64,000 nucleotides of DNA from an uncultured Flavobacteriales bacterium (GTDB lineage: Bacteria; Bacteroidota; Bacteroidia; Flavobacteriales_G; Salibacteraceae). This document shows, piece by piece, positions 28,484-47,986 of this stretch (positions are counted from its first letter, which is position 1; every line of letters begins with the position of its first letter). Below the pieces are notes generated by a model that was given only the letters and a program-made list of their open reading frames with translations, was not told the origin of the DNA and ran no database searches. A program made the translations under genes and the position numbers. Where the stretch lies: assembly GCA_937121175.1 (NCBI GenBank), contig CAKZKD010000003.1, positions 124,001 to 188,000 on the forward strand. The letters are read 5' to 3'.

Positions 28484-29193
28484 GATTTAGTAGAAACACA
28501 TTGCGCAGCATTATCACTATTTTGAGGCAGTGCAGGGCTAAGGTATTTAATATCAAGATTCAATCCGCGGAGAATGAACAAGATACCAATTAAAGCGGCA
28601 AAGTAGGGGAGTGCTCTTCTAATACCAACACGCCATTTTTCTTTGACCAAAGAAGGTGAAAAGGCTATAAACAACATGGCAGGTACAGTTCCCAATCCGA
28701 AGATTAACATGTAGATGGCGCTTTCTGAAATTCCATAACTTGTAATAGCTCCCGCGGCAGCAAAATAGACCAGCCCACATGGGAGCAAGCCGTTCAAAAT
28801 CCCCATAGACAAAAAGGCAAGGGTGTTTCTTTTTGAAATGAAGTGTTGCATTGATATTTTTAGCTTATTCAATTTAGAAGCTAAAAAATTATTCTGCTCA
28901 AATAATTTTTCAAAACTGTAGGGGGTTAATGCTGCTACAAGTATCAGTACGCCCATACCAATAGAAAAGTACTGCTGGAAGCCAAAGAATGAAACACCGA
29001 TTCCTAGAATCCCTAATCCAAGACCAATAAGGGAATAGGTGAAAATTCGACCTACATTATAAGTAAGAATGGAAAGTAGTTTACCAGTTACTGACATTTT
29101 ACCAATTGGCAGTGCAAGTGCAATAGGTCCACACATTCCAACACAATGCAAGCTGCCCAGAAACCCAATCAAAAAAGCAGTAACCAGATGCAC
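28480..29193 (-). CDS. SafE/TauE-family (DsbD/urease-accessory-like) membrane protein associated with the cco cluster
   Basis: FLIGFLGSLHCVGMCGPIALALP; NGLLPCGLVYFA; six-TM pattern. Confidence 0.85.
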   Translation of the reverse strand: MHLVTAFLIGFLGSLHCVGMCGPIALALPIGKMSVTGKLLSILTYNVGRIFTYSLIGLGLGILGIGVSFFGFQQYFSIGMGVLILVAALTPYSFEKLFEQNNFLASKLNKLKISMQHFISKRNTLAFLSMGILNGLLPCGLVYFAAAGAITSYGISESAIYMLIFGLGTVPAMLFIAFSPSLVKEKWRVGIRRALPYFAALIGILFILRGLNLDIKYLSPALPQNSDNAAQCVSTKS

Positions 29194-29195
29194 CT

Positions 29196-29627
29196 TTACT
29201 GAATAAAAATGTTCTTTTCGAAATAGTACTCGATATTACCTTTAATCCACTCTACCCGCAACTGGTAACGACCTTTTTGTAAATCATTAGTAGAAATGCG
29301 CTGTTCTAATCCTGCTGCTAATGAAAGGGCATAACGTCTGTCTAGTTTCTTGTCTGAAGGCCTATAAAAATAGATAGAACCACTGTCAGCAACGTGCGGC
29401 ATTGTTATTTGATAATTTTGACCTTGCTGAACCAGCGTTATTTCGGAATCTAATTCAGAATAGTTTTTAGATTTATCAATCTGATTTTGGAACTGTAGTT
29501 CTTTTGCGTAGTAGTCTTCTGTCTCCAAATCAAAATCTACCATCATTGCAGAAATAACCAAGTATGAAATGTAAGCTATAAAACCTATCATACCTAATGC
29601 TAAACCATGTCCCCAGTGAAATCTCAT
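29196..29627 (-). CDS. ccoH: FixH/CcoH-family protein
   Basis: MRFHWGHGLALGMIGFIAYISYLV...DLETEDYYAKELQFQNQIDKSKN. Confidence 0.85.
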   Translation of the reverse strand: MRFHWGHGLALGMIGFIAYISYLVISAMMVDFDLETEDYYAKELQFQNQIDKSKNYSELDSEITLVQQGQNYQITMPHVADSGSIYFYRPSDKKLDRRYALSLAAGLEQRISTNDLQKGRYQLRVEWIKGNIEYYFEKNIFIQ

Positions 29628-29636
29628 ATTTTTTCT

Positions 29637-29694
29637 GTATTACGTACAAATGTATTACGTAAAACGTTTTAACGCGGAACGTTGTACGTAATAC
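29637..29694. repeat. Intergenic palindromic element between ccoG and ccoH
   Basis: Perfect 13-bp inverted arms GTATTACGTACAA (29637-29649) / TTGTACGTAATAC (29682-29694), plus internal direct copy GTATTACGTA and palindrome AAAACGTTTT. Confidence 0.85.
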
Positions 29695-29699
29695 GTGGC

Positions 29700-31127
29700 C
29701 TAAAGGCCACCGGGCCCCATAAAATTAGTACTAATCGTTTCCAACTTTCTGTCTCCATCGTACACATTGAGTTTTATTTTGGTTTTTCGTCCGTCTAATG
29801 AATCCGGTTGAATGAGAATAAACATTGCACCTTCAGCACTTTCTCTTTCGTTAACTTCTGTTTTTTGACCCACCAATTGGATAGTTCCTTTTGGTTCCAC
29901 AAGCTCAAATCTAAATTGGAAACCCTCACTAGTTTTATTAATTACCTTGTAATTGTAGAGGTTTTTAATTCGGCCATCTTCGTGTTCTAAGTAGAGCATA
30001 CCAGGAGTTCGTAAAAGGGTAGTTTCTACATCAGTTCTTCCAAACAAAAAGGCTCCGAAAATGATAATCAAGACACCCAAAAGTACCGTGTAGGAAATAA
30101 TTCTAGGTGTAAATTTAAATTCTTCTTTATCGTGGATATTGGCTTCTGAGTAATATCCAATCAAGTTAGGTTCTAGCCCAACATTGGTCATCATTTCATC
30201 GCAAGCATCAATACAAGCCGTGCAGTTTACACACTCCAATTGAGTTCCGTTACGAATGTCAATTCCAGTTGGGCAAACATCAACGCAATGCCCGCAATCA
30301 ATACAATCACCTTTTCCAGCTTCTTCTCGAACTTCTTTTTTACCTTTCCATTTTCCACGATTTTCACCACGCACATAATTATAAGCTACAACCACAGAGT
30401 TGCGGTCAAGCATCACACCTTGGAGTCTTCCGTAGGGACAAACTGCAATACATACTTGCTCTCTGAATCGGGCAAATACGCCGTAAAATACGCCAGTAAA
30501 TAAAACAAGGGCTGACAACGTTCCAATGTGAGCAAAAGGCCCATCAGTTTGCATGGCTAGTAATTCCTCATTACCAATAATGTAGGCTAAAAATGTGTTA
30601 GATATAGCAAATGAGATACTGAAGAAGATGGCATGCTTGATACCTTTTTTTGTGATTTTTTCTTTATCCCATTTTTGTTTTTTGAGTTTCTTTTGGTGTT
30701 TGTAATCGCCTTCAATCCAATACTCTATTTTACGAAATACCATTTCCATAAAAATAGTTTGAGGGCAAACCCAGCCGCAGAATACTCGACCAAAAACTAC
30801 AGTAAACAATACTACAAATACAACCCCGGTTATCATGGCTAACGCAAACAGGTGAATGTCTTGCGGCCAAAATACTTGACCAAAAATTGAAAACTTGTTG
30901 TCAATAATATTGATTAGTAAAAATGGCTCACCATCAATTTTTATCCATGGTCCGGCAAAAAGAAGGGCGAGAAGTAAGTACGAGAGGAGGCTGCGGTAAT
31001 TGTAAAGTTTTCCTTTTGGTTTTTTTGCAAAAATCCAATTTCGTTTACCGTCTTCATTTATAGTACCAATCGAATCTCTAAAGGACTCGTCTGGTTTGTA
31101 GTCAATTCCTGGTGTTTGTTCAGCCAT
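29700..31127 (-). CDS. ccoG: Cytochrome c oxidase accessory protein CcoG (FixG), 4Fe-4S
   Basis: FCGWVCPQTIFMEMVFRKIEYWIEGD; CIDCGHCVDVCPTGIDIRNGTQLECVNCTACIDACD. Confidence 0.95.
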   Translation of the reverse strand: MAEQTPGIDYKPDESFRDSIGTINEDGKRNWIFAKKPKGKLYNYRSLLSYLLLALLFAGPWIKIDGEPFLLINIIDNKFSIFGQVFWPQDIHLFALAMITGVVFVVLFTVVFGRVFCGWVCPQTIFMEMVFRKIEYWIEGDYKHQKKLKKQKWDKEKITKKGIKHAIFFSISFAISNTFLAYIIGNEELLAMQTDGPFAHIGTLSALVLFTGVFYGVFARFREQVCIAVCPYGRLQGVMLDRNSVVVAYNYVRGENRGKWKGKKEVREEAGKGDCIDCGHCVDVCPTGIDIRNGTQLECVNCTACIDACDEMMTNVGLEPNLIGYYSEANIHDKEEFKFTPRIISYTVLLGVLIIIFGAFLFGRTDVETTLLRTPGMLYLEHEDGRIKNLYNYKVINKTSEGFQFRFELVEPKGTIQLVGQKTEVNERESAEGAMFILIQPDSLDGRKTKIKLNVYDGDRKLETISTNFMGPGGL

Positions 31128-31159
31128 TGTTTGTGATGTTTGTTACACTTAATGGAATA

Positions 31160-31188
31160 AAAAAATCCTCCCGAAGGAGGATTCTAAA
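31160..31188 (-). terminator. Intrinsic terminator/attenuator between ccoP and ccoG
   Basis: Minus strand AATCCTCCTTCGGGAGGATTTTTTT (UUCG-type tetraloop and T-run). Confidence 0.8.
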
Positions 31189-31189
31189 A

Positions 31190-32362
31190 TTAACTTTCTT
31201 TATTCTCTTTCTTCTCAACGGGGATGTCAGGATTATCGTCCGCTACTGCAGTAGAATCCATAACTGGTTCTGCAGTTGTACTATCTGCAGGTGTATCTTC
31301 GACTTTTTCTACCCAAATTTTTCCTTGAGGTTCTTTTTGATTCGGAGGATTTGTTCCTTGCAAGGTCAAAATATAGCTAGCAACTTCTTGCATTTGTTTA
31401 GGACTCAATTGCGCTTCCCAAGGAATCATTCCTTTTTCCGGAACGCCATATTTTACAGTAGTAAATACATTTTTTATACCTCCTCCATGCAACCAGTATT
31501 CGTCGCTAAAGTTTGGCCCAACTCCACCTTCACCCATTTGACCATGGCAAGCAGCACAATTAGAGATATAAACGCCTTTTCCTTTTTCTAAAGAACCCGC
31601 ATCGGTAATTAAAGTAACATTGGTTTCGTCAATTGCATTATCCATTTTGCTCATGTACAATTCTTTTGCAACTCGAGCTTCTTCCATTGCCATTTCAAAT
31701 TCACCGGCTTGATTAATTCCAGGGCCAAATTGGTAGTAACCAATATATACCACAGCAAATAAAATGGTTAAGTAAAAACCATACAGCCACCATGGTGGAA
31801 GGTTGTTGTCCAATTCGCGAATTCCGTCGTGTTCGTGTTCAAACATGATTTCTCCTTCGTCTTCAATCGCAACATAATCGGTAAGAGCACTTGTCCAACT
31901 ATCTTCTTCTACTGTTTCTTCTTCAATGGTGCCTCGAATAGCTTTTATCATGGTACGCATAACGCCTACTTGATAAAACAATAGGAAAACTAAAATACCA
32001 TTCATTGCCAGTAGTGCGTTGAACAGTTCGCTGCCCATAACGAATGCATTGGCAATAGCACCATCTTGTGCATACGCTTGAGTAGTAGCCAAAAGGAGTA
32101 AAAGGGGTAGCAAAACTTTGGCACTTGATGCGGCAGCTTTTTCTCTTACAATAGCCCAAACATTTTTGTCAGAAGCTAGAGATTTAATCGTTCCCAGAAC
32201 AATAAGGTTCGCAATTGCCAAAATAGTGGCTAATCCGATTAACGCCCATAAAAGAGTAGAGTCGTCAACAACGCCAGTGCCATCGGCTTGGGCAAATCCT
32301 GAAGTACCTCCGAGCAAAAGTGCTACGGTACTTATTGTGGTCATGAATCTTCTATTTTTCAT
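31190..32362 (-). CDS. ccoP: cbb3-type cytochrome c oxidase subunit III (CcoP), single c-type heme
   Basis: One CAACHG heme motif; WWLYGFYLTILFAVVYIGYYQ; start MKNRRFM preferred (ORF track 32425). Confidence 0.9.
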   Translation of the reverse strand: MKNRRFMTTISTVALLLGGTSGFAQADGTGVVDDSTLLWALIGLATILAIANLIVLGTIKSLASDKNVWAIVREKAAASSAKVLLPLLLLLATTQAYAQDGAIANAFVMGSELFNALLAMNGILVFLLFYQVGVMRTMIKAIRGTIEEETVEEDSWTSALTDYVAIEDEGEIMFEHEHDGIRELDNNLPPWWLYGFYLTILFAVVYIGYYQFGPGINQAGEFEMAMEEARVAKELYMSKMDNAIDETNVTLITDAGSLEKGKGVYISNCAACHGQMGEGGVGPNFSDEYWLHGGGIKNVFTTVKYGVPEKGMIPWEAQLSPKQMQEVASYILTLQGTNPPNQKEPQGKIWVEKVEDTPADSTTAEPVMDSTAVADDNPDIPVEKKENKES

Positions 32363-32561
32363 TTTCACTGTTTTTATTGAATGGATAATCATTGCCATTT
32401 TCGAGTGGTAGATGGGCAATTTCATCCACCTTGCTTTTTTTCATGGTATAAATCCAAACGGTAACCGCTACAAAAAAGCTAAAGAATATTACGAAGGAAA
32501 GCACCGGGAAAATTTCAATTCCGTCGATACTTGTCATATGTCCTTTAATGAATTTGAGCAT
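32352..32561 (-). CDS. ccoQ: cbb3-type oxidase small subunit (CcoQ-like)
   Basis: 69 aa, one TM (VLSFVIFFSFFVAVTVWIYTMKKSKVDEIAHLPLE); positioned between ccoNO and ccoP. Confidence 0.75.
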   Translation of the reverse strand: MLKFIKGHMTSIDGIEIFPVLSFVIFFSFFVAVTVWIYTMKKSKVDEIAHLPLENGNDYPFNKNSENEK

Positions 32562-32563
32562 GA

Positions 32564-34708
32564 TTATTTAGTTAAATCTTTGTTTTTAATATCTGTTCCA
32601 AGTCGCTGTAGGTAGGCAATTAGCGCAACAATTTCCTTGTCTTTGTCTGTTTTGATTTTATCTCCCGCCAGATTATCTACAATTTTTTGTGCTTGAGCCT
32701 GTGCATCGGCAATGGCTCGTTCAGCATATCCTTCTGCATAAGGGACTCCTAAGGTTTGCATTGCACTGATTTTCTTTGGTAACATTTCGTAGTCAATGTT
32801 ATCCTCTAGTAACCATGGGTATGCTGGCATAATAGAACCTGGAGACATAGTTCTTGGGTCTAGCATGTGATTAAAGTGCCAGCTATCTGGATATTTGTTC
32901 CCCACACGGTGCAAATCTGGTCCTGTTCGTTTACTTCCCCATTGGAACGGGTGGTCGTAAACAAATTCACCTGCTTTAGAGTACTCTTGGTCCACAGGGT
33001 CGTAACGAACCACCTCGGAACGGAAAGGACGAATCATCTGAGAATGACAGGTATAGCAGCCTTCTCGTATGTACAAGTCTCTACCTTCTAATTCGAGTGG
33101 AGTATAAGGTTTTACACTTGTAATGGTTGGAACATTAGATTTTATCAAGAATGTTGGGATAATTTCAAAGATTCCACCAATAGCGACAACCACTAAACTG
33201 AATACCAACATTTGAATTGGTTTTCTTTCAATAACTCTGTGCCAGTACTCATTTGTGCTTGGCGTATAGGTAACAGGAAGAGCAGGAGCTTGGTCTGCTT
33301 CTGTAGCAGCAAATGTTCCTTGAGCCGCAGTTTTCATTAAGTTGTAAACCATTACTCCAGCACCAGTAAAGTACAATAGGCCACCAAGAACTCTTAATTG
33401 ATACATGCCTTGAATTTGGGTAACCGTTTCCAAGAAGTTAGGGTAGGCTAGAGCACCTTCAGCAGTAAACTCTTCCCACATTAAACTTTGAGCAAAACCA
33501 GCCCAGTACAATGGAAGTGCATATAGAATAATACCTAACGTGCCAATCCAAAAGTGAGTGTTTGCCAGTGACTGAGAGTACAACTTCGTATTCCACATTT
33601 TCGGTATTAAGTAGTATAACATACCAAAGGTTAGGAATCCATTCCAACCCAATCCACCAATGTGAACGTGCCCTACTATCCAATCGGTGTAATGTCCAAC
33701 TGCGTTTACACTTTTAATAGATAGTAATGGACCTTCAAATGTGGCCATTCCATAACAAGTAAGCGCCACCACCATAAACTTAAGAACTGCATCGTCTCTT
33801 ACTCTATCCCATGCTCCACGTAGGGTAAGTAGTCCATTGAGCATACCACCCCAAGATGGTGCAATTAGCATAACACTAAATGCAACGCCTAAAGTTTGAG
33901 CCCAGTCTGGTAATGCCGTATATAACAAGTGATGAGGACCAGCCCAGATGTACAAGAAAATTAATGCCCAGAAGTGCACAATAGATAACCGGTAGGAGAA
34001 CACTGGACGATTTGCTGCCTTAGGAATGAAGTAGTACATAAGACCTAAGTAAGGAGTAGTAAGGAAAAATGCAACCGCATTATGACCGTACCACCATTGC
34101 ACCAATGCATCTTGAACACCAGCGTACCAGCTATAGGATTTCATGAAACTAATTGGAAGCTCAAAACTGTTGACAATGTGCAACATCGCAACCGTTATAA
34201 ATGTTCCGATGTAAAACCAAATAGCTACATATAAATGACGTTCTCTTCTTTTGATAATGGTCATAAACATGTTCACACCGAATGCAACCCAAATAAGAGC
34301 AATTAGAATATCAATCCACCATTCTAGTTCTGCGTATTCTTTACCAGTAGTCATTCCTAAAGGAAGAGTAACTGCCGCACAAACAATAATGAATTGCCAG
34401 CCCCAAAAGTTTAGGTTTGATAAGGCTTTACTCCACATGGGGGCTTTTAGTAATCGAGGTAATGAGTAATAAACCCCTGCAAAAATTCCATTACCGACAA
34501 ATGCAAAAATCACTGCATTGGTATGCAATGGTCTAATTCGACCATAGGAAATGTATTTTAATAAGAAATTATCGTTAAAGAAATCGGCAAAGGCAAGTTG
34601 AGAGGCTACAATAAGCCCAACCAACATTCCTACTAAGCCAAAAACCGCAGAAGCAATAATGAAGTTTTTCACTATTGCATTGTCATATTCAAACTTTTCC
34701 AGTTCCAT
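32564..34708 (-). CDS. ccoNO: cbb3-type oxidase subunits I and II fused (CcoNO)
   Basis: CcoN: RIRPLHTNAVIFAF, WWYGHNAVAFFLTTPYLG; CcoO: GCYTCHSQMIRPFRSEVVRY, FNHMLDPRTMSPGSIMPAYPWL. Confidence 0.95.
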   Translation of the reverse strand: MELEKFEYDNAIVKNFIIASAVFGLVGMLVGLIVASQLAFADFFNDNFLLKYISYGRIRPLHTNAVIFAFVGNGIFAGVYYSLPRLLKAPMWSKALSNLNFWGWQFIIVCAAVTLPLGMTTGKEYAELEWWIDILIALIWVAFGVNMFMTIIKRRERHLYVAIWFYIGTFITVAMLHIVNSFELPISFMKSYSWYAGVQDALVQWWYGHNAVAFFLTTPYLGLMYYFIPKAANRPVFSYRLSIVHFWALIFLYIWAGPHHLLYTALPDWAQTLGVAFSVMLIAPSWGGMLNGLLTLRGAWDRVRDDAVLKFMVVALTCYGMATFEGPLLSIKSVNAVGHYTDWIVGHVHIGGLGWNGFLTFGMLYYLIPKMWNTKLYSQSLANTHFWIGTLGIILYALPLYWAGFAQSLMWEEFTAEGALAYPNFLETVTQIQGMYQLRVLGGLLYFTGAGVMVYNLMKTAAQGTFAATEADQAPALPVTYTPSTNEYWHRVIERKPIQMLVFSLVVVAIGGIFEIIPTFLIKSNVPTITSVKPYTPLELEGRDLYIREGCYTCHSQMIRPFRSEVVRYDPVDQEYSKAGEFVYDHPFQWGSKRTGPDLHRVGNKYPDSWHFNHMLDPRTMSPGSIMPAYPWLLEDNIDYEMLPKKISAMQTLGVPYAEGYAERAIADAQAQAQKIVDNLAGDKIKTDKDKEIVALIAYLQRLGTDIKNKDLTK

Positions 34709-34889
34709 GGAGATTTGTTTTTGTATTTGATTTTGAAATTATTTCTGAATTCTTGTTTTCGAAAAGCATTCTGACTGAGGGAGTATAGTCGTCTTCGAAT
34801 TGTCCGGAGCGGATGGACCAAATGAATGCTCCTAAAAAAATTAGTGCTACGAAAATGCTTGCACCAAGTAATATGAATATTACACTCAT
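34689..34889 (-). CDS. ccoS: cbb3 oxidase maturation protein CcoS
   Basis: MSVIFILLGASIFVALIFLGAFIWSIRSGQFEDDYTPSVRML; start at 34889 (ORF track 34910 overlaps a TACTTTTG promoter-like element). Confidence 0.88.
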   Translation of the reverse strand: MSVIFILLGASIFVALIFLGAFIWSIRSGQFEDDYTPSVRMLFENKNSEIISKSNTKTNLHGTGKV

Positions 34890-34907
34890 GGTAGTAGTTT
34901 GTAATAC

Positions 34908-34915
34908 CAAAAGTA
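34908..34915 (-). promoter_or_regulatory. Candidate Bacteroidota -7 promoter element for the ccoS-NO-Q-P operon
   Basis: Minus strand TACTTTTG matches the TAnnTTTG consensus about 19 nt before the ccoS ATG. Confidence 0.4.
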
Positions 34916-34981
34916 AATGCGTGAATATGGGTGGATTGTGACCTATGCTACGGGCTAATCTGACTTTCGATAGTAAGAAAA

Positions 34982-34995
34982 TTGACTTAAGTCAG
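34982..34995. promoter_or_regulatory. FNR/CRP-family-like operator upstream of the cco operon
   Basis: TTGACTTAAGTCAG containing perfect palindrome TGACTTAAGTCA. Confidence 0.6.
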
Positions 34996-35050
34996 TATTC
35001 TGAAGTTTTGTTAATTAATGGAAGTAAAACGTTAGATAAATCGATTTTAT

Positions 35051-38000
35051 TTACTGCACAATCAGCTTATGACTGTGATTTTCACCATCGACCGATACGT
35101 TAATCATATAACTTCCTGCAGCTAATTTCTGATTCATTTCAATAGCTACAACAGAATATTCCCCTTGGTTAATTACCGTAAAATCAGTTAGATAGGATTT
35201 ACCAATGAAGTCATTTATTAGCACGTTAATTTCTGCAGCGTCAGCGTTTGGAATTTTCATGTACATGTTATGTCCATTACTAGGGTTGGGGTATAACTCA
35301 ACATGCATATCGTTAGGGTGCTCACTTAACTCAAACAATACTTTTTCTAAGTCGAAATATTCAGTTTTTCCGTCAAAATCCGTTTGACTCAAACGGTAGT
35401 ATGAGATACCATCTGAAGGATTGTAGTCTTTTTCATGGTATTCCGTTTGTTCATTTGTAGTTCCTTGTCCTGCAACTTGAACAACTTCTTCAAATGTGTT
35501 TAGGTCTTTTGTTTTTTCTACGGTAAAGAAGTCATTGTTGATTTCAGAAGAGGTAATCCAAAATAAATCAACCACTTTTTCTCCTGAGTTTGGCTTAGCT
35601 TCAAATTTGGTTAATTCAACTGGAAGCGGGTTATTGTTGGTGTTGGAAGCAAGTACAAAAGGGCTAAAAGTGGTTACTCGGGCAGGAGTTCTCAATCTTC
35701 CAGCGGTTGTATTCCCCTCAAAATTTCCTCCGCCATGGTTGTCCCATAGACTTACTCCATCCCAACGAGCAACCAATAAGTCATTAATATCTGTAACTCC
35801 ACCGCTATTGGTGTCCCAATATAACCATACATAAACATTATTTGAACCTGCAACTCTGTCCAATATCCAATACTCAGTTGTGCTAATGTGTTCTATTCCA
35901 GCAGCATAAGAGGCTGAACCATAAGCCCAGTTTGTTGTTGGGTCAACTTCAAAGTACTGTGCTCTAAAACGACCAGACGATGAATTTGGACTATGGCTTG
36001 CAATTCTAATTTCACGGTATTGGCCGTTGTCTCCAGTGGGGAAGGTAAAATCGTCATTTCCAATTTTTTCGATTGGACCATCAACGTGTGATGCATCAGA
36101 AGCACCTGTGACAGTTGCATTATCTCTTATATAAACCAGCCCAGAAGTGGAGGTGTTTAGGACTCCGTCAGTAAAGGTTACTGTAGTAGGAATTTCAATT
36201 GGTGCATTAAGTGTAACGCCAGTCGAAGTATTATTTAAGGTCATTCTTCTTACCAACGTAATTCCTGAAGCCCCTAAATCATTAAAAGATTGTGCTGCCG
36301 AGCCATCCCATATAATCGTACCATTGTTTTGAGCCAAATACAGTTGACTATTAGAATTGACGTTAATATCTCCAGCAAAAGTGCTGGGTTGATTGTAAGC
36401 AGGATGTAAAGTTCCTGCTGTCTTTATGAATGTAGCATTACCGTTGTAATCGTTTGCAACATTATTAGCCAATCTTAAGCGACCCGAACTGCCCATATTA
36501 ATTGTGACATTCCCATTGAAAGTATTGTCTCCGTATGAATCGTTATTAGTAGAACCTGTCATAGTTAAGGAAAAGTCCCCAGAATAAGTGGTTGTTCTTC
36601 CATAATATCTCGGTGCTGACACTGTCATGTTCCCACCAAATGAAGAGGTATAAGGATAGTAGCGAGCTGTTCCGGTCAAGGTTAGGGTTGAAGCTGCGTT
36701 ACCAAGCTGAGTGAAGTTTCTGATTTGTAGCTCTCCTGCAACGTAACCAGCTCCTCCGGTTGAAATTGAACCACCAGCTGATTGAGTTGCATTACCATTA
36801 GAACTTCCAAAGTAAATACCGTCACAAGAAGCGTTGGTAGATTCTAAGCTGATATTTCCACCATAATTAATTAAACTATTCGTTTCTTGATTACAATATA
36901 CTTGACTGTTACCTGCAGCTGAAGAATTTGTAATCGAAAGGTCACCAGATAAAGTAATATCTCCGCGTCTTCCAAAGTAACATCGGCTAGTAGAACCAGA
37001 ACCAGCATTTGTAAGAGTTGCATTTCCACCAATTGTCAAAGAACTAGCGTTTTCGTTACTGATGTAAATATTCACCGTTCCAGTACCATTATTAGTTGCT
37101 GTTAAATTACCACCAATGGCATTCCCTGCAGAATTGTGAGCAATGTACATGTTATCAGATCCTGTAGCTATCATAGTTAAGCCAGATGCCCAAGTGTCGG
37201 CAGTTCCGTTGCCCATAAGGAAATAACCAGAACCTGAGTTTCTCATAATGCACGCACCAGTAAAACTGTTTCCACCTGGAGAAGCGTCATCAGTTGCTCC
37301 GGTTTTTTCTAAATCTGAAGTACCTGAATAGGTTGTGCCACGAGTGTAAAACCTCGGCGCCTCAAAATTTACATTCCCTCCCCAGGCAGCATCATACTGA
37401 ACCATATAGGCTGTTCCTGTTAACGCTAAAGCTTGTGCCGTTCCGCCAGTTTGCGTAAAGTTTCTAAACCGAAGTTCGCCTGCAACAAAACCACCACCAG
37501 AAACGGTAATCGTTCTAGTATTTGCTAAAATTCCTGATCCACCATTTTGCCCAAAGCGAACACCATCTCCAGAAGCATTAGTATTTTCAACGGTGATGTT
37601 TCCATTGTACATATTCAACCCATTTCCTCGGTCGTTGCAGTAAACCTCAGAATTAGTGGCAGAACTTGTATTACTAATACTTAAATCGCCATTAAATGTC
37701 ATGTCCCCATTATAACCAATGTAGGTTCGTTTAGTAGTACCTGCACCTGTGTTCGTGTAACTACTATTGCCTCCAATAGAAACCACCGAAGTAGAACCCA
37801 TTCCACTATACATTTCACCTGTAGTAGCAGTGCTTGAATTAACAGCGGTTAGATTTCCAGAAACTGTTAGGTCTCCGTTCTCTGTCAAACGAATTCTTTT
37901 AGTCGTCCCTGATGCACTGTTTGTCGCGCTTAAGTTGCCATTAATAATTACAGCACTGTTCGTAGCGTTGGCCATTCGAACTTCTGCATTAGCACCTGTT

Positions 38001-41000
38001 CCGTTATTAATTAGTGTCACATTATTATTGAATGTAATATCACCAGAGTTGCCAACATAAATAGTGCTACTCGTTGCATTACTGAGGTTAGAAATAGCAG
38101 TGGTTCCAGTAACCACAAGAGTTGAGTTCGTATTATCAGAAATGTAAATTCTATTGTCTGTACCTGTTCCGTTGTCTGTTACAGTAAAATTTCCTCCTAT
38201 AGTATTTCCTGCACTATTTCGGGCTATATACATGAAACGGTTAGAGTTGTTGGTCATTGTTAAGTCGGCACCAAATGTATCTGGACTACCTTCTCCCATA
38301 GAAAAGGTATTTGTTCCGTTATTTATTAGAGATGTATTTCCAGTGAAAGCATTTCCTCCCGGACTTCTATCGTCACCAGCGTTCGTTTTTGTTAATGAAG
38401 AAGTTCCTTGATATGCGGTTCCTCTTGTGTACATCCTACCAGACGAAAAAGTTACATTTCCACCCCAGTCTGAATCGTAGTTGTAAATGTATCCGGTGCC
38501 AGTATTAGTTAGTGTTTGTGCAGTAGGTCCAACTTGCGTAAAGTTCCTAAATCGCAAATCACCACCAATAAAACCACCTCCACCAACTGTAATCGTTCTG
38601 GTTGCAGCTAGAGTACCCGTTCCTTGTTGCCAACCAAACCAAACACCGTCGCTTGCTGCATTAGTTGACTCTACAACTATATTTCCGTTGTATGTCCCAA
38701 CACTACTAGGTCTGTCGTTACAATAAATATGAGAATTGGTTGCCGAAGAACTATTTGTAATTGACAGGGTAGATGTAACCGTAACATCACCATTATTACC
38801 AAAATAAATACGCTTGTCATTTCCAGCACCAGAGTTTGTTAAAGTCGCTGTTCCGCCGATTGACACAGTTGAACCAGAGCCACTTGCTATGTATGCTGTC
38901 CCATTCGTTGAGGTAGTGTTGTTGTTTAGTATGAGATTTCCTGTTAAAGTAACATCCCCACTATTTCCAAAATAGCTGTTATGAGTAGTACTTCCAGAAC
39001 TTGTATTTGTTAGCGTTGCGTTTCCTCCAATGGTAACTAATGATGTGGCATTTTGAGCTACAGAAATATTGGAGGAAGTACCCGTAGAATTGCTATTTAT
39101 TACTAAATCTCCGGTTAGTGTTACATCTCCATCGTCTCCAAAATAAAAGTTGAACGCACTGTTACTAGGAGAGTTTGTAATCGTTGCATTTCCTCCTATC
39201 GAAAGGGTAGAGGCGGCGAGATCACTTATGTATATATAGCGAGTAGTTGTAACGTTTGCTGTGTTATTAATCACAAGATTACCTGTTATGCTATTTCCGG
39301 CACTGTTGTATGCTAAATACATATTATGCGAGCCCGAATTATTCATGGTTAAATTAGCAGAAAATGTGTCTGGAGCTCCATCTCCAAATAGTAAGTAACC
39401 TGATCCTTGGTTGTTTAATGTGCAATTTCCCGTAAAAGTATTTCCACGTGAGTTTCTATCGTCTGACGCACCAGTCTTTGTTAGTACCGATGTGCCTTGA
39501 TAAGTTGTACCCCGGGATACAATTCTACCCGAACTAAATGAAATGTTTCCACCCCAATCGGAATCCCAATTATAAATGTAACCGAGGCCTGAGTTAACCA
39601 ATGATTGCGGGGTAGCTCCAACTTGAGTGAAGTTTTTAAAGTAGATATCTCCTGCAGTTATACCACCTCCAGATGCTGTAACTGTTCTTGTTGCTGCGAG
39701 AGTACCGCTACCACCAGCGTTTGAAGTTCCAAAGAATACCCCGTCAGAAGCAGCGTTGCTATTTTCTAGGGTAATATTGCCATTATATGCATTTACGCTA
39801 CCGGGCTGATGATTGCAATAGATTTGTGAATTAGTGGCCGAACTGGTGTTCTCTATATCTAAATCACCGTTAAAAGTAACATCACCATAGTGACCAAGGT
39901 ACATTCTTTTTGTGGTTCCAGCTCCAGTATTTATAAATGAGGCATTTCCTCCAATGGTTACCGTTGATAGCGCATTATTTGCAACATAAGTGTTTGCATT
40001 AGTTCCAGAAGCTGAGACATCAACCGTAAGCGTTCCTCCTATAGTAACGTCTCCTTGCTCGCCTATGAAATTTATATGATTATTACTGGAGTTAGTTCCT
40101 GTCAGTGATACATTTCCTGTAACTGCTAAACTTGAAGCACTACTATTCGCAAGTACAATTCTTGAGTTATTTGCAGTAGCTGAATTCGTTGTAGTTAGGT
40201 TACCACTTACGTTTACATCTCCAACATGAGCAAAATAAATATTGGCTTCGTTGGTAGAGGTTGCAGCATTGTGTGCAGTCGCATTTCCTGTAATGTTCAG
40301 TCCAGATGTATCAACAGAACATAAGTACATGTTAGATGTGGACACAGAGCCTGTGTTATTCATAATTAGATTACCACCGATTGTACTGGCTGGAGCGCGA
40401 TAAGCAAAATAAAAGGTGCTTGAACCTGAATTGTTAAGAGTAACATCCGCAGAGAAAACATCGTTTGTACCATCTCCAAAACGCAATTCACCAGAACCAC
40501 TATTTGTAATAATTGCATTTCCGGTAACTGTATTACCTCCATCGCTTTCGTCTCTCGATCCTGCTGTTTTTTCCAATGTCAAAGTTCCTTGATAGGTGTT
40601 GAATTGACTGATAATTCTTCCAGAAGTAAAATCAATATTACCTCCCCAATTGGAGTTTTCAATAAAAATTAATCCTGTTCCGCTATTAGTGAAAGTTTGA
40701 GCTGTGGGACCAACTTGAGTAAACCTTCTTAAATATAAGTCGCCGGATATAAACCCTCCAGCTCCAACAGAAATTGTTCTGGTAGCGGCAAGAGTTGCGG
40801 AGCCACCACTATTTCCGAAAAACACTCCATCGCTTCCGGCAATGGTGCTACTTAGAATAATATTTCCATTATAGACTCCAACACTATTGGCATTTTGGTT
40901 ACAAGAAATGCGACTGCTTCCCGCAGTCGATGAGTTAATAAGAGTCATGTCGCCATTTACCGTAATATCTCCATTTTCTCCAATAAACATTCTAGCATTA

Positions 41001-44000
41001 GCTCCACCACCAGATTGTGTATAGTTTAAGTCGCCTTGAATAGTAACCGAAGAGTTCGAGCCTTGAGCAATGTACGAATCTGGAGTAGTGGAGGTGGTTG
41101 CTCGATTCCAAGTAACGTTTCCACCGACTGTTACATCACCTTCTCTTCCTAATCTTTCACTTGAAGTAGTCGAGCTAGCAGAAGCTGTAATGTCAACATT
41201 TCCAGTAATTGCGAGAGTAGAAGCAATTTGATCAGAAAAATAGAGCCAAGTACTGGACCCTGTTCCTGAATTGGTGGCAGTTAGATTTCCAGCGATAGTA
41301 TTTCCTGCACCGTTGTAGGCCAAGTAAATTCCTCTGGTACCAGAATTATTAACCGTTAAGTTGCCTCCATAAGTATCAGCTGTTCCATCGCTCATTAGAA
41401 TATATCCAGCATTAGTACAGTTCAAAATAGCATCTCCGTCAAATGTGTTTCCACCGGCAGAGCGGTCATCACTGGCACCGTTTTTTGTAAGTGAGGAAGT
41501 TCCTCTGTAATGAGTACCTCTCGTAATCATTCTGGGTCCTGAAAAAACAACGTCTCCTCCCCAATCACTATCATAATTATAAATAATACCCGTACCACCG
41601 GTTATGGCAAGCGATTGCGCTGTAGCTCCTGTTTGGGTAAAATTTCTGAAATATAAATCTCCAGAAATAAACCCTCCACCACCAACAGAAATAGTTCTCG
41701 TAGCAGCTAGAGTCGAACTCCCTCCCGCGTTTCCAAAGAAAACTCCATCGCAAGCCGCATTTGTAGATTCAACGGTAATGTTTCCGCCATAGGTTGCAAC
41801 ACTATTCGTATTGTGATTACAATAAACCTGTGAATTGGTTGCTGAACTAATGTTTGAAATACTTAGATCTCCAGTTAGCGCAATATCTCCCTGATTTCCA
41901 AAATAGACTCTTTTAGTGGTTGAGGCTCCTGTATTTGTTATTATTGTGTTTCCTCCAATAGTTAATAAAGAAGTAGCATTTTGAGAAGCGTAAATTTCTG
42001 ACGATGTACCAGTTCCTGAATTCGTTAAGGTCAAGTTCCCGGTTAAATTAATATCACCATCATCAGAGAAGTAAACCCGACTGTTCGAGGCGGACGAAGT
42101 GACATTCACAATTGCATTGCCACCTATTGAAAGTGCAGCGGTTGCGCCATCACTGATGTATATGTACGAATTGGTTCCACTTGTAGCTTGATTTATAGTT
42201 AAGTCACCCGCAATAGAATTACCAGCACTGTTATATGCCAAATACATATTTCTAGATCCGGTATTGTTCATGGTTACATTGGCCCCGAAAGTATCTCCTG
42301 TGCCATTCCCCATTAAAAAATAACCGCCTGCACTTGAACAGTTCAGTATTGTATTACCGTCAAATTGATTTCCACCTAAGGATTGGTCATCTCCCGCTCC
42401 ATTTTTTGTTAAGGTACATGTTCCACGGTATCTCGTTCCTCTGGTGAACATTCTGGGTGAAGAAAAAACAACGTTTCCGCCAAAATCGCAATCGTGAATG
42501 TCTAGAGCTCCAGTACCAGCGATAGCTAGAGATTGGGCCGTTGAGCCAGTTTGAGTAAAGTTTCGAATGCGCAAATCTCCACTTGTAAATCCACCCCCAC
42601 CAACTGAAATGGTTCTCGTGGCGGCTAAGGTTGATGACCCTCCACTTTCTCCAAAATAAACTCCATCAGTACCTGCTCCAGTTGACTCAACTATAATGTT
42701 ACCGTTGTATATATTCGTACTATTAGAGCTATTATTACAATAAATTAAACTGTTTGTTGCAGTACTAGTATTTGTAAGTGACATGTTTCCATTTACCGTA
42801 ACGTCTCCATTAGACCCAATATAAAAACGGCCATTGCTGGTGCCTCCACCATTTGCGACTGTTAAATCTCCATTAATGGTAACTGCAGAAGTAGCTGATT
42901 GTGCAATGTATGTTTCGGTAGATGATACGTTAGCTGTATTGGTCCATGTTAGATTTCCTCCGATTGTTATAACTCCGTTATCCGCTATTCGACTATGACA
43001 ATTTGTAGCAGTTCCAGAAACAGTCATATTGAAGTTTCCGGTTATATTTAGGTTTGCAGTACCTCCAGCACAGACATAAATGAATGCGGTAGTTCCTGAT
43101 CCAGAGTTCGTTGCAGATAAGTTTCCACCTAGAGTATGACCAGGTCCATTATTTGCCAAATAAATACCACTAGTTCCTGTGTTATTCATTGTAACGTCGG
43201 CTGCAAAATTGTCCGCAGTGCCATTTCCCATCATAAAGTAGCCACCACCTGAACAGTTTAGAACAACATTGCCGTCGAATTGATTTCCACCAGGAGATTG
43301 ATCGTTTGAAGTACCATTTTTTGTGAGGGTGGCTGTGCCTCTGAATCTAGAGTCCCTAGTATAAACTCGTGGCGCTGAGAAAACTACATTTCCACCCCAA
43401 TCGCAACCATCCAAATAAAGGTAGCCCGTACCCGTTAGGGCCAAATTTTGATTTGTTGCACCAGTTAGGGTAACATCTTTTAGACGAAGCTCACCCGCTG
43501 TAAAACCTGAACCACCAATTGTTATGGTTCGCGTTGCTGCTAATGTCGCTGAGCCGTTGCTGTTTTGACCAATTCGAACTCCGAGACCATTTGTGGAGTT
43601 TACAACAATATTTTGATTGAATTGGGTGCCGGCCGAATTGTATGCCAGATAAATACCACTGGTGCCAGTGTTTGTACAAGTCAAAGCTCCGTTGTAGGTA
43701 TCCGAAGCAGTATTGCCTGTCATTAAATAGCCTGAACCCGAACAAATAAAAGATGTGGTACCGTTAAAAGTATTTCCTCCAGTTCCAACATCGTTACCAG
43801 CTCCATTTTTGGTAAAGATTGCGGTACCATTGTAAACAGAACCATTGAGATAAAGACGGTTTGACGTTACTGAAATATCTGGATTGAAGGTAGTTCCTCT
43901 TAATTGAGTTGTTGCCGTTGAGGTTATAGACAATGCTCCTCCAGAAGTATTATTAAAAGTCCCGTCTTCGAAATCATTATTGATAGCACCATTAATGGTG

Positions 44001-44299
44001 AGGTTATTACCGTTAAGGTCTATAGTTGCTGTGAAACCAACTGAGATATCTATTCCTCCAATGGTGGGGGCCATATCTAGGGTGAGATTCACGTTTCCAT
44101 TTGAGTTAAATAAGGCTCTGTCTCCGGCAATCGGCACAGATGCTCCACCAGCTCCACCGCTTGTTGTGGACCAGTTGCCTGTTTCATTCCAATTGTTATT
44201 CGTGGTCCCAATCCAGTAACGATCTACAGCAAATATTTCTATGGTAAATAGAAATAGGACGGTACAAATGAATAATTTATTTAAAGACATGTTTTGCAT
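35051..44299 (-). CDS. Giant secreted Asn/Thr/Ser/Gly-rich repeat protein (beta-solenoid-like) with T9SS sorting tail
   Basis: Signal peptide MSLNKLFICTVLFLFTIEIFA; eight modules anchored by LAATRTI(S/T)VGGGGF..G(D/E)L..RNFTQ; LPVELTKFEAKPNSGEKVVDLFWITSSEINNDFFTVEK; C-terminal LYPNPSNG...SYMINVSVDGENHSHKLIVQ. Confidence 0.88.
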   Translation of the reverse strand: MQNMSLNKLFICTVLFLFTIEIFAVDRYWIGTTNNNWNETGNWSTTSGGAGGASVPIAGDRALFNSNGNVNLTLDMAPTIGGIDISVGFTATIDLNGNNLTINGAINNDFEDGTFNNTSGGALSITSTATTQLRGTTFNPDISVTSNRLYLNGSVYNGTAIFTKNGAGNDVGTGGNTFNGTTSFICSGSGYLMTGNTASDTYNGALTCTNTGTSGIYLAYNSAGTQFNQNIVVNSTNGLGVRIGQNSNGSATLAATRTITIGGSGFTAGELRLKDVTLTGATNQNLALTGTGYLYLDGCDWGGNVVFSAPRVYTRDSRFRGTATLTKNGTSNDQSPGGNQFDGNVVLNCSGGGYFMMGNGTADNFAADVTMNNTGTSGIYLANNGPGHTLGGNLSATNSGSGTTAFIYVCAGGTANLNITGNFNMTVSGTATNCHSRIADNGVITIGGNLTWTNTANVSSTETYIAQSATSAVTINGDLTVANGGGTSNGRFYIGSNGDVTVNGNMSLTNTSTATNSLIYCNNSSNSTNIYNGNIIVESTGAGTDGVYFGESGGSSTLAATRTISVGGGGFTSGDLRIRNFTQTGSTAQSLAIAGTGALDIHDCDFGGNVVFSSPRMFTRGTRYRGTCTLTKNGAGDDQSLGGNQFDGNTILNCSSAGGYFLMGNGTGDTFGANVTMNNTGSRNMYLAYNSAGNSIAGDLTINQATSGTNSYIYISDGATAALSIGGNAIVNVTSSASNSRVYFSDDGDINLTGNLTLTNSGTGTSSEIYASQNATSLLTIGGNTIITNTGASTTKRVYFGNQGDIALTGDLSISNISSATNSQVYCNHNTNSVATYGGNITVESTNAACDGVFFGNAGGSSTLAATRTISVGGGGFISGDLYFRNFTQTGATAQSLAITGGTGIIYNYDSDWGGDVVFSGPRMITRGTHYRGTSSLTKNGASDDRSAGGNTFDGDAILNCTNAGYILMSDGTADTYGGNLTVNNSGTRGIYLAYNGAGNTIAGNLTATNSGTGSSTWLYFSDQIASTLAITGNVDITASASSTTSSERLGREGDVTVGGNVTWNRATTSTTPDSYIAQGSNSSVTIQGDLNYTQSGGGANARMFIGENGDITVNGDMTLINSSTAGSSRISCNQNANSVGVYNGNIILSSTIAGSDGVFFGNSGGSATLAATRTISVGAGGFISGDLYLRRFTQVGPTAQTFTNSGTGLIFIENSNWGGNIDFTSGRIISQFNTYQGTLTLEKTAGSRDESDGGNTVTGNAIITNSGSGELRFGDGTNDVFSADVTLNNSGSSTFYFAYRAPASTIGGNLIMNNTGSVSTSNMYLCSVDTSGLNITGNATAHNAATSTNEANIYFAHVGDVNVSGNLTTTNSATANNSRIVLANSSASSLAVTGNVSLTGTNSSNNHINFIGEQGDVTIGGTLTVDVSASGTNANTYVANNALSTVTIGGNASFINTGAGTTKRMYLGHYGDVTFNGDLDIENTSSATNSQIYCNHQPGSVNAYNGNITLENSNAASDGVFFGTSNAGGSGTLAATRTVTASGGGITAGDIYFKNFTQVGATPQSLVNSGLGYIYNWDSDWGGNISFSSGRIVSRGTTYQGTSVLTKTGASDDRNSRGNTFTGNCTLNNQGSGYLLFGDGAPDTFSANLTMNNSGSHNMYLAYNSAGNSITGNLVINNTANVTTTRYIYISDLAASTLSIGGNATITNSPSNSAFNFYFGDDGDVTLTGDLVINSNSTGTSSNISVAQNATSLVTIGGNATLTNTSSGSTTHNSYFGNSGDVTLTGNLILNNNTTSTNGTAYIASGSGSTVSIGGTATLTNSGAGNDKRIYFGNNGDVTVTSTLSITNSSSATNSHIYCNDRPSSVGTYNGNIVVESTNAASDGVWFGWQQGTGTLAATRTITVGGGGFIGGDLRFRNFTQVGPTAQTLTNTGTGYIYNYDSDWGGNVTFSSGRMYTRGTAYQGTSSLTKTNAGDDRSPGGNAFTGNTSLINNGTNTFSMGEGSPDTFGADLTMTNNSNRFMYIARNSAGNTIGGNFTVTDNGTGTDNRIYISDNTNSTLVVTGTTAISNLSNATSSTIYVGNSGDITFNNNVTLINNGTGANAEVRMANATNSAVIINGNLSATNSASGTTKRIRLTENGDLTVSGNLTAVNSSTATTGEMYSGMGSTSVVSIGGNSSYTNTGAGTTKRTYIGYNGDMTFNGDLSISNTSSATNSEVYCNDRGNGLNMYNGNITVENTNASGDGVRFGQNGGSGILANTRTITVSGGGFVAGELRFRNFTQTGGTAQALALTGTAYMVQYDAAWGGNVNFEAPRFYTRGTTYSGTSDLEKTGATDDASPGGNSFTGACIMRNSGSGYFLMGNGTADTWASGLTMIATGSDNMYIAHNSAGNAIGGNLTATNNGTGTVNIYISNENASSLTIGGNATLTNAGSGSTSRCYFGRRGDITLSGDLSITNSSAAGNSQVYCNQETNSLINYGGNISLESTNASCDGIYFGSSNGNATQSAGGSISTGGAGYVAGELQIRNFTQLGNAASTLTLTGTARYYPYTSSFGGNMTVSAPRYYGRTTTYSGDFSLTMTGSTNNDSYGDNTFNGNVTINMGSSGRLRLANNVANDYNGNATFIKTAGTLHPAYNQPSTFAGDINVNSNSQLYLAQNNGTIIWDGSAAQSFNDLGASGITLVRRMTLNNTSTGVTLNAPIEIPTTVTFTDGVLNTSTSGLVYIRDNATVTGASDASHVDGPIEKIGNDDFTFPTGDNGQYREIRIASHSPNSSSGRFRAQYFEVDPTTNWAYGSASYAAGIEHISTTEYWILDRVAGSNNVYVWLYWDTNSGGVTDINDLLVARWDGVSLWDNHGGGNFEGNTTAGRLRTPARVTTFSPFVLASNTNNNPLPVELTKFEAKPNSGEKVVDLFWITSSEINNDFFTVEKTKDLNTFEEVVQVAGQGTTNEQTEYHEKDYNPSDGISYYRLSQTDFDGKTEYFDLEKVLFELSEHPNDMHVELYPNPSNGHNMYMKIPNADAAEINVLINDFIGKSYLTDFTVINQGEYSVVAIEMNQKLAAGSYMINVSVDGENHSHKLIVQ
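36400..43900 (-). repeat. Eight long tandem modules built from about 58-aa sub-repeats
   Basis: Anchor (RTI/V segment) positions 43527, 42612, 41694, 40776, 39684, 38595, 37512, 36768; spacings 915, 918, 918, 1092, 1089, 1083, 744 bp. Confidence 0.85.
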
Positions 44300-44433
44300 T
44301 TTATTCTAGAACATGCAATGCTCCAAAAAGGTTACTGTAAAGAGTATTAATTAAGATAAGTAGAGCGTTTTTTAGACGTATGACGTTTCAGAGAAATAGA
44401 CTAGACAAAACTGTTTTCATAATGTCTTTTTGG

Positions 44434-45564
44434 TCAATATAGGTTATAAAGCATTAACCGGCCTTCCAAAGGTCCATTCCATAAAGGTATTCTCCTTTTT
44501 GGTTTTAACCCTAGGGCTTTAATTGCCGGAATATTTGCACTGAATATAGCGGCGGTCCAGCCCTTATAATCAGATTTTAACTTGTCTCCTATTTCCGCAT
44601 AGAATTGTTTAGCATCGGCCAATGTAATTCTTTTGTCATACGGTGGATTCATTATTAACAAACCAGATTCTGCTGGCGCAGGAGAAGTAAAGAAGTCTTT
44701 TTTGAAAACGTCAACAAAGTGTTCAAAACCGGCTGATGCTAGATTCATTCTCGCATCTTCTAGTGCATACGGATGATTATCTGAACCTGTAATTGGAGTT
44801 TTGCTGTTTCTTTGTTCCCCATCCATTGACTTTTTAAGGGCTAACCAGTCCGCTCGTTCGAACATTCTCCATTGTTTAAAACAAAAATTATTTCGGAATT
44901 TTCCGGCGGCTACATTGCGTGAATTCATGTAAGCCTCGGTAAGTAGAGTGCCGCTTCCACACATTCCGTCAAATAAATAGGAGTTTCCATCCCAATTGGA
45001 TAATTGAATCAGACCTGCAGCGAGGACTTCGCTCAGAGGTGCTTTTCCGCTTACGGTTTTGTAACCTCTTTTGTGAAGGGAATCACCAGAGCTATCTAAT
45101 GAAATTGTACAACGGTTTCCAGCAATAAGCAGATGAATTCTAATGTCTGCATTTTTCAAATCAACATCAGGTCGTTCCGAACCCAAGTCAATAAACCGAT
45201 CGCAAATAGAATCTTTTAATAATTGAGCAGCGAAAACACTGTTTTTGAACACTTCTGTTCTTACAACGGCATCTATGGCGATGGTTTTTTGCGGATAAAA
45301 ATATTTTTCCCATTCAATTTTTTTACCGTGATCGTATAAGTCGTCGTTACTGTTTATCTCGAAAGAGACCAAGTTAATTAAGACTCTTAAGGCAGTTCGT
45401 AGTGTGTAATTTGAGCGGTAAACATCGTCCATGTTACCAACAAAAGCAACACCTCTTTTCCGGATTTCATGTTTGGAACCAATTTTGTTTTGTCGGAGTT
45501 CTTCTAATAAAACTTCTTCAAGCCCTTGGTAGGTGGTTACGTAAATTACAAACTCAGATTTCAT
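44434..45564 (-). CDS. THUMP-domain class I SAM-dependent RNA methyltransferase (RlmL/TrmN-like)
   Basis: THUMP-like N-terminus; LFDGMCGSGTLLTEAYM; LIMNPPYDKRI. Confidence 0.9.
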   Translation of the reverse strand: MKSEFVIYVTTYQGLEEVLLEELRQNKIGSKHEIRKRGVAFVGNMDDVYRSNYTLRTALRVLINLVSFEINSNDDLYDHGKKIEWEKYFYPQKTIAIDAVVRTEVFKNSVFAAQLLKDSICDRFIDLGSERPDVDLKNADIRIHLLIAGNRCTISLDSSGDSLHKRGYKTVSGKAPLSEVLAAGLIQLSNWDGNSYLFDGMCGSGTLLTEAYMNSRNVAAGKFRNNFCFKQWRMFERADWLALKKSMDGEQRNSKTPITGSDNHPYALEDARMNLASAGFEHFVDVFKKDFFTSPAPAESGLLIMNPPYDKRITLADAKQFYAEIGDKLKSDYKGWTAAIFSANIPAIKALGLKPKRRIPLWNGPLEGRLMLYNLY

Positions 45565-45742
45565 AGTTCCATTTTTTGCAAAGATGCTTTATCTGACTCG
45601 GTTTTTGTATGAAGTTTTAAAACAACAAACAATAGACATTTTAATACGTTATATGGTAAATAAGAGCAGTGGTTTGACGAAGATTTTTATCCTCTTCTCG
45701 AGCTTATTTCTATTAATTTTGCAGCAATTTTTTCAACAAAAG

Positions 45743-47986
45743 ATGACTAGAATTTTTTCCTTATTTTTTGCCTTAACCACTATGGTTCCATTATTTGGTC
45801 AGATGGAGAAGTACCATGTGGAAGGTGATATGAAGGATGGTTTTTCAGATATGTCCCATGCCTTTGTAATTGTTTATGTAAATGGGCAAAAAGTAAAGCG
45901 AATACCTGCTGATGGTAGTGGTAAATTCGAATTTGATTTAGATTTTGGTAAAAATTATGTTTTGGAGTTTATTAATCAAGGATATGCTTCAAAAAAGGTG
46001 GACATGCTATTCCAGAACGTTACTCCAGAAATGATTTATATTGGCTGTGACCCTAAGCCAATTCAAGTAAGCATGATACAAAAGGTGGAAGGGATTGATT
46101 ATTCTGTTTTGGATAAATCGGTTGGACAAATCTTCTTTAACCCAGAAGATAAATGTTTCGATTGGGATGCTGATTACACCTTAAAGGCAATGGAAAAAAT
46201 CAGAGAATTAGAGGATGAACTTGATGAAAAACGTGAGGATTTCGAAGAAAACAAAGCTGCTGCTGAAAAAGCACTTTCTAAAGGAAATTTTGATGAAGCA
46301 AGAAAAAGTGCAGAAGCAGCAATGGCTGCTATGCCAAATAATGAAGAGGCAAAAAAACTATTGACATCAATCAGTGAACAAGAAAAGGCGGCTAAAGATG
46401 CCGAATTGGCCGCTAAAGCTGAAGAAGAAGCTAAAGCTGCAGCCGACGCAGAAAAAGCAAAAAAAGATGAGTTCGACAATTTAGTTGCTGCTGGTGATAA
46501 AGCATTGAAAGCTGAAAATTTTGATGAGGCAACGACAAAATATGAAGAAGCAGCTAAAATTCTTCCAGAGCAAACCTCAGTAAAAACTAAACTTCAAATT
46601 GTAGCGGATACCCAAGCGAAACGCACTGCTGAGGAAGAGGCTAAGAAAAAGGCAGAAGCTGATGCGTTAGCTGCGGAAGAGGCAGCAAAGCTTAAAGCCG
46701 CTGAAGAGGAAGCTTCTGCCAAAGCTGCCGAAGAGGAAGCAAAGAAACAAGAAGAATTAGCTGCCGCCGAAGCGAAAAAAGCGGAAGAAGAAGCCAAAGC
46801 AAAAGAAGAGGAAGCTGCAGCGGCTGCCAAATTAGCCGAGGAAGAAGCCAAGAAAAAAGCTGAAGCAGATGAGGCTGCGGCGAAAGCAGCGGAAGAAGCT
46901 AAAAAACAAGAAGAAGAATTGGCTGCAACTGAAGCCCAAAAAGCCGAAGAAGCTGCAGCTGTCAAAGCAGAGGAAGAAGCTGCGGCTGCAAAGGCTGCAG
47001 AGGTAGAGGCCAAAAAGAAAGCAATAGCTGCGGGTAAATCTGAAAAAGAGGCAGAAAAAGAAGCACAGAAAAAGGCTGAAGAACTGGCGAAAGCTAAGGC
47101 CAAAGAAGAGGAGTTGGCTGCTAAAGCAGTGGAATCTGAGGCTAAAGCCAAAGCGGAAGCTGCCACGGCAGAGGCGGAGGAAGCTAAAAAGAAGGCTGAG
47201 GAACAGGCGAAAGCCAAAGCTAAAGAAGATGAGTTGGCTGCTAAAGCAGCGAAATCCGAGGCTGAAGTTAAAAGTAAGGCTGAAGAAGAAGCTAAGAATA
47301 AAGAAAAAGAGGCAGCTGTTGCCGCAAAAGCTGCGGAAGTAGAAGAAGCGAAACGAAAAGAAGAAGAACAGGCTGCAGCTGAGGCAAAGAAAAAAGCGGA
47401 AGTCAAAAAGCCAGAACCCAAAAAGGAAGAAAAGAAGAAAACAGTGGTGCCGAAAGTATTACCTAAACCAAAGCCTGTGGTTAAAAAAACTCCAGTAAAA
47501 AAGCCTGCACCGAAACCAGTTGTTACAGCCAAAACTAAAAAGGCTCAAGTGAATGCAGAAAAGAAAAAGGATTTACATGCTTCGGCAAAAAAAGTAACGA
47601 AGCCTAAAGATAAACACGATGATATTCACGCCAAATTAGATCAAGCAGCAGCTGCACAAAATCCGACAACCACTAGTATTCACGAACATCACGATTGGGA
47701 TATGATGAAGCCTGGTGTTCACGAAGAAATTGCTGTCGAATATCCAATCGGAGTTACAGAAGAAGTTTACATGAAGGGAAATAAAGAAATTCTAGAGCGT
47801 GTAGTAGTTAAAGATGGTTTGGGAAGTATTTATTGGAGAGTTAAACATCCATGGGGTGGAGTTTATTATTTCAAGAATGCGAATGTTGCGATTAGTGCTG
47901 TAGAATTCGATTTGTTTACCCGGATTAAGGATGCAGATGGAAATGTTATTGAACCTTATCACATAGACAGAGTTGAGGATCATTGA
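45743..47986 (+). CDS. Secreted protein with two TPR-like repeats, a long K/A/E-rich (TolA-like) region and a His-containing C-terminal domain
   Basis: Start inferred at [20 protein letters not shown] (ORF track 45584); [27 protein letters not shown] and [35 protein letters not shown]-type runs; C-domain [42 protein letters not shown]. Confidence 0.75.
46380..47560 (+). repeat. Low-complexity Lys/Ala/Glu-rich coding repeat
   Basis: Tracts such as [43 protein letters not shown]. Confidence 0.85.

Follow-up and report, generated by a model that had tools for sequence, protein, structure and literature searches.

The giant repeat protein P0001, encoded in the 64,000-nucleotide stretch of Flavobacteriales DNA analysed here (the window), is composed of large repeats that differ in length by whole two-coil blocks, and this pattern is old and common to its relatives. 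Its gene lies on the minus strand, from 44299 to 35051, and runs from an ATG start codon through 3082 codons to a stop. An earlier note on this DNA, drawn up from the sequence alone, had described an open reading frame of this position and length; the frame is real, although its strand had been left unstated, and a plus-strand reading was rejected as it contains many stops. Features of the gene and its locus are listed in Table 1.

Table 1. Features of the giant repeat gene (P0001) and its locus, with positions in the window; aa, residues of the encoded protein.
Feature	Position	Strand	Details
Giant repeat protein gene	35051..44299	-	3082 aa
Signal-peptide-like N-terminus, aa 1-24	44228..44299	-	MQNMSLNKLFICTVLFLFTIEIFA; sequence read by eye
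N-terminal region, aa 25-250	43550..44227	-	Ends as a partial module without coil array
Module 1, aa 251-555	42635..43549	-	305 aa, 2 full coil pairs; anchors and HMM tiling
Module 2, aa 556-861	41717..42634	-	306 aa, 2 full coil pairs; anchors and HMM tiling
Module 3, aa 862-1167	40799..41716	-	306 aa, 2 full coil pairs; anchors and HMM tiling
Module 4, aa 1168-1531	39707..40798	-	364 aa, 3 full coil pairs; anchors and HMM tiling
Module 5, aa 1532-1894	38618..39706	-	363 aa, 3 full coil pairs, the first partly HMM-matched
Module 6, aa 1895-2255	37535..38617	-	361 aa, 3 full coil pairs; structure predicted with the next head
Module 7, aa 2256-2503	36791..37534	-	248 aa, 1 full coil pair; exactly 56 aa short of orthologues
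Eighth anchor and last head, aa 2504-2620	36440..36790	-	Anchor scan
C-terminal beta-rich region, aa 2621-3001	35297..36439	-	Conserved in relatives (alignment); model pLDDT 70
T9SS type A sorting domain, aa 3002-3082	35054..35296	-	TIGR04183, 24.1 bits, cut-off 23
Block of giant gene and cbb3 oxidase genes	28484..44433	.	Absent in two genus mates; context, outside the protein

The anchor scan returned eight strong anchors, at aa 251, 556, 862, 1168, 1532, 1895, 2256 and 2504, with scores of 89-179, and the next-best windows scored at most 23. The intervals of 305, 306, 306, 364, 363, 361 and 248 aa that had been reported before were identical on remeasuring, and the three length classes of the modules are real. 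Short-lag autocorrelation of the protein showed peaks at 56 and 29 aa. Inside the coil arrays, the scores per residue were +1.19 at lag 56, +0.67 at lag 112, +0.39 at lag 29 and -0.34 at lag 58; over the entire repeat region, lag 56 scored +0.06, and no lag exceeded -0.39 in 200 shuffles. Since these scores favour 56 and not 58, the sub-repeat comprises two coils, the first of 29 aa and the second of 27 aa. The earlier note had proposed a sub-repeat of about 58 aa made of two units of about 29 aa: the sub-repeat exists and has two coils, but its period is 56 aa, lag 58 being at background, and one of the coils is 27 aa long. The value of 58 arose because the spacing differences include small indels.

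Iterated HMM tiling placed 2, 2, 2, 3, 3, 3 and 1 full 56-aa pairs in the seven modules, the first full pair of module 5 being matched in part and completed by eye, and added a shorter terminal pair, of about 50 aa. The steps between length classes, of 55-58 aa, correspond to 56 aa with small indels of 1-2 aa, in agreement with the proposal that they represent whole sub-repeats. Lag scoring and HMM tiling thus bear out both the periodicity and the whole-unit steps on which the earlier reading had been staked.

A 476-aa stretch comprising module 6 and the next head was modelled by AlphaFold2 from its alignment with 41 other module stretches of the window and of relatives. The model was a continuous beta-solenoid (pLDDT 96.7, pTM 0.93) with three strands per coil and no helix, and the strands of the array started at positions 154, 183, 210, 239, 266 and 295, giving steps of 29 and 27. 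The solenoid suggested previously was therefore recovered as three-stranded coils in the predicted model of one module, and a beta-solenoid fold of the module is a structural reading well supported by this prediction. Counting by eye gave about 13 coils in a 305-aa module; at 4.8 Å per coil, the length of the rod is estimated at about 50 nm.

No sequence relatives of the module were found in the PDB, no Pfam family covered the repeat modules above its cut-off, and no chain in a PDB fold search with the module model reached E 0.001. The leading matches of this search, which were weak, were the beta-helical adhesins EtpA (E 0.024) and antigen 43 (43b, E 0.033). Bactofilin matched five of the 42 modules (best E 0.0012); these weak matches were read as generic solenoid similarity, and a bactofilin relationship was not retained. 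A profile of the C-terminal part matched two known PDB chains over the sorting domain and one other chain marginally, and the fold matches of the C-terminal model (pLDDT 70), which were generic Ig-like folds only, were set aside.

Two other functions were considered. The protein could be an enzyme, such as a polysaccharide lyase, present in many copies, as the beta-helix fold class and the presence of PL6 alginate lyases among the very weak fold matches might indicate. The PL6 matches, however, had E values of 0.4 or worse and TM-scores below 0.2, Pfam and NCBIfam scans reported no enzyme family, and the array is regular and rich in Gly, Thr, Asn and Ser; an enzymatic array is thus very unlikely. 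Alternatively, regular rows of threonine could bind ice or a mineral. Threonine does occur at alternate positions of one strand (46% and 40% in array columns 4 and 6), and bacterial ice-binding beta-helices were found among the weak fold matches, but the latter had E values above 1, the threonine rows are far from uniform, and the host genome has no known cold habitat. Moreover, adhesins of the beta-helix fold class often have such a Thr-rich strand too. We therefore give very little weight to ice or mineral binding by the solenoid.

The giant protein was found in eight other genomes of the same family and in more distant Bacteroidia, with matches at E 1e-30 in 33 of the 395 class genomes, its own family counted in. 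Orthologues in other genera displayed the same ladder of lengths, differently ordered, with modules of 305, 305, 364, 305, 361 and 304 aa in L036; 305, 305, 306, 361 and 304 aa in L035; 308, 305, 306, 365, 362, 363 and 307 aa in L041; and 305, 360, 304, 304, 303, 305 and 304 aa in L037. The predominant modules of many distant relatives measured about 164 aa or 224-227 aa. Arithmetically, the length classes fit a module that consists of a head plus last coil (164 aa) with an inserted array B(CB)n, where 164 + 29 + 56 = 249, 164 + 29 + 112 = 305 and 164 + 29 + 168 = 361.

Modules of 344, 379, 185-200, 257-259 and 294 aa, also present among the relatives, lie off this simple ladder. Those of 344 aa form a separate class in three relatives of one genus (L038, L039 and L040) and exceed 305 by 39 aa, which is not a whole coil pair; the C-terminal tail of these three proteins is longer, at about 970 aa. 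The gene that follows downstream in the relative SAT141 (L015 17618-19948) codes for another T9SS protein, P0009 (776 aa), and over its last 202 residues P0009 shares 72% identity with the giant protein's end.

A comparison of modules between species located one change by a whole coil pair. P0001 module 7 (248 aa) falls beside module 6 of L036 and module 5 of L035 (304 aa each) in the module tree, with a support of 98/94 for the P0001 and L036 pair and of 87/87 for all three together, and its alignment with the two orthologues shows a single gap of exactly 56 residues. A change of one whole coil pair between species is therefore established, which corroborates the earlier proposal that modules, themselves duplicated, grew or shrank by whole sub-repeats. 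As two orthologues stand against one, P0001 probably lost the pair rather than the others having gained it. Sister modules 4 (305 aa) and 5 (361 aa) of L036 are also one pair apart. The best matches of coil pairs kept their position (first with first in 19/19 cases, last with last in 19/19), so modules were duplicated together with their arrays. The N-terminal module of P0001 carries no array, and its counterparts in L035 and L036 have three pairs. Finally, the coil pairs of P0001 module 2 were nearest to those of L036 module 4, with the heads grouping otherwise, a pattern that suggests module shuffling.

The P0001 modules share 46-60% protein identity in pairs. At conserved fourfold-degenerate sites, their third bases agree at 24-42% and are saturated, and the longest exact DNA repeat in the gene is 16 bases, compared with 15-24 bases after synonymous codon shuffling. 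Because synonymous sites are saturated and long identical DNA is lacking, the idea that the length of this protein currently varies was not supported, and ongoing slippage or recombination was rejected on the same data. Only comparisons between genera revealed changes in module number and order, and three genus mates lack the gene. Within the reach of the sequences analysed, the length pattern appears to be old and not a cell-to-cell switch.

These data also bear on whether P0001 might be a variable surface protein of the Periscope kind, in which repeat number shifts fast between strains by means of near-identical DNA repeats. Tandem modules on a probable rod, and orthologues differing in module number and lengths, would be compatible with such a protein. 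However, Periscope proteins depend on long, highly similar DNA repeats (PMC8201768), whereas both the divergence of the P0001 modules, in protein and at fourfold sites, and an exact repeat within the range of synonymous shuffles argue strongly against it, and we judge this explanation highly improbable. An array set by old changes remains the preferred reading.

The window contains a second giant T9SS protein, P0002 (3892-13275, plus strand; 3127 aa), with stretches of right-handed beta-helix. A DNA identity of 77% over 1.3 kb links two of its repeats, and its longest exact repeat has 26 bases, so P0002 is the more recently duplicated of the two proteins. The tripeptide D[ST][AILVMT], a Bacteroidetes O-glycosylation motif, was observed 34 times in P0002 against 16.4 expected (41 D[ST]) and not once in P0001 against 5.6 expected (14 D[ST]). 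It was undepleted in some relatives of P0001.

The earlier description of P0001 as a secreted protein is supported by its C-terminus. The last 81 residues matched the type A sorting domain TIGR04183 just above the cut-off in the NCBIfam scan and with 32.3 bits in a genome-wide search; Pfam PF18962 scored 20.4 bits on the same end, below its cut-off of 27, and a hydrophobic stretch was read, by eye only, at aa 9-24. SprA, PorV and PorU are all present in the host genome, each above cut-off, together with at least 150 type A sorting domains (150 of 239 candidates scored). The giant protein is thus probably exported by the type IX system. One of the sorting domains of the host genome (G000:C4:155796-156020), outside the window, sits in an open frame of 11098 aa.

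SprB-type gliding adhesins travel on tracks along the cell, and P0001 could be another of them, since it is a giant repeat protein of the T9SS type and its Bacteroidota genome encodes SprA. Yet the sorting domain of P0001 is of type A, the type B domain TIGR04131 was not reported for it by the NCBIfam scan, and the Pfam scan revealed no shuttle of the PorP/SprF kind among the neighbours examined. In addition, SprB given a type A domain was immobile or released (PMC12618676). A role in gliding therefore seems most unlikely.

The giant gene is flanked by an RlmL-type methyltransferase gene (44434-45564) and by a fused CcoN/CcoO oxidase gene (32564-34708), after which comes a CcoP-type gene (31190-32425). 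The same gene order was found in L014 (MAG HKST-UBA67), taken as the contig of L036. In two genus mates (G001 and G002), gene order is kept to either side, the neighbours there being mostly 61-90% identical, with about 0.3 kb in place of the block of about 16 kb that includes the cbb3 oxidase genes. Neither CcoNO nor the giant protein had a match in three genus mates at the thresholds used. Loss of the block in the genus mates would be the simpler reading, because another genus has it beside the same methyltransferase. A functional link between the giant gene and the cbb3 operon is weak, since the flanks of L035 gave no CcoNO match, and it is drawn from few genomes. Further along the window, an 800-aa protein (45584-47986, plus strand) matches no Pfam family and has a long Ala/Glu/Lys-rich middle; the genus mates conserve its ends, whereas its middle was unaligned.

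We consider it probable that P0001 is a T9SS-secreted solenoid whose array lengths were set by old, in-frame loss and gain of coil pairs, and which serves as a structural element, a stalk or fibre, at the surface or within the matrix. PorV would carry the giant protein off SprA, after which it might be released or linked to surface lipopolysaccharide, as type A substrates are (PMC10994853). In each module, short coils would build a head of about 140 aa; the array B(CB)n, with coils of 29 and 27 aa, would follow, and one more short coil would end the module, n = 1, 2 or 3 deciding the length class. The array lengths would differ through ancient in-frame losses or gains of whole coil pairs, for which recombination of a pair with its neighbour is the probable route; a two-coil step preserves the alternation of B and C and therefore the fold. 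The resulting rod, of the order of 50 nm, could serve for attachment or spacing. The earlier note had proposed a filamentous solenoid adhesin. The solenoid stands in the predicted model, but Pfam and NCBIfam scans of the whole protein recognised no adhesive domain, although one of an undescribed kind may be present, and the sorting domain is not of type B, the kind that SprB uses. As an adhesive domain and a significant PDB fold match are both lacking, an attachment role is unsupported, and adhesion would be conjectural. We found nothing specific in the literature on T9SS solenoid giants.

More tentatively, these proteins may constitute a solenoid family with an array quantised in two-coil steps, in which B(CB)n, where n is at most 3, extends a basal head of about 164 aa and each species has a length series of its own along one rod, and in which one or more lineages lost or kept the gene together with the cbb3 oxidase operon; we regard this broader scheme as possible but rather doubtful. 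P0001 opens no new mechanism. It does provide a clean case of the evolution of a giant solenoid, by duplication of large modules and exact, in-frame loss or gain of coil pairs between orthologues, and the alignment of its modules could define a repeat family that has no Pfam match.

Among known proteins, RemA and SprB of Flavobacterium johnsoniae are likewise T9SS substrates, and the sorting domain of RemA is also of type A; SprB differs in having a type B domain and its own shuttle (PMC12618676), and RemA in its lectin domain, none being found in the giant protein. EtpA (two-partner secretion) and antigen 43 (an autotransporter) are beta-helical and gave the best, albeit weak, PDB fold matches. 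However, these were not significant at E 0.001 and were accompanied by no sequence relation, and both proteins are secreted by type V systems, whereas the giant protein has a T9SS sorting domain. Periscope proteins share with it tandem modules, a probable rod and a module number that varies between relatives, but the repeats of P0001 are strongly diverged in DNA. P0001 resembles the giant repeat-bearing TIGR04183 proteins of Bacteroidota in its sorting domain, signal-like N-terminus, size and genomic secretion genes, and differs from them in its modules, for which neither a Pfam family above cut-off nor a solved sequence was matched; judged from its sequence, it belongs to this known kind of giant, repeat-bearing T9SS type A protein, in a repeat family that has no Pfam match.
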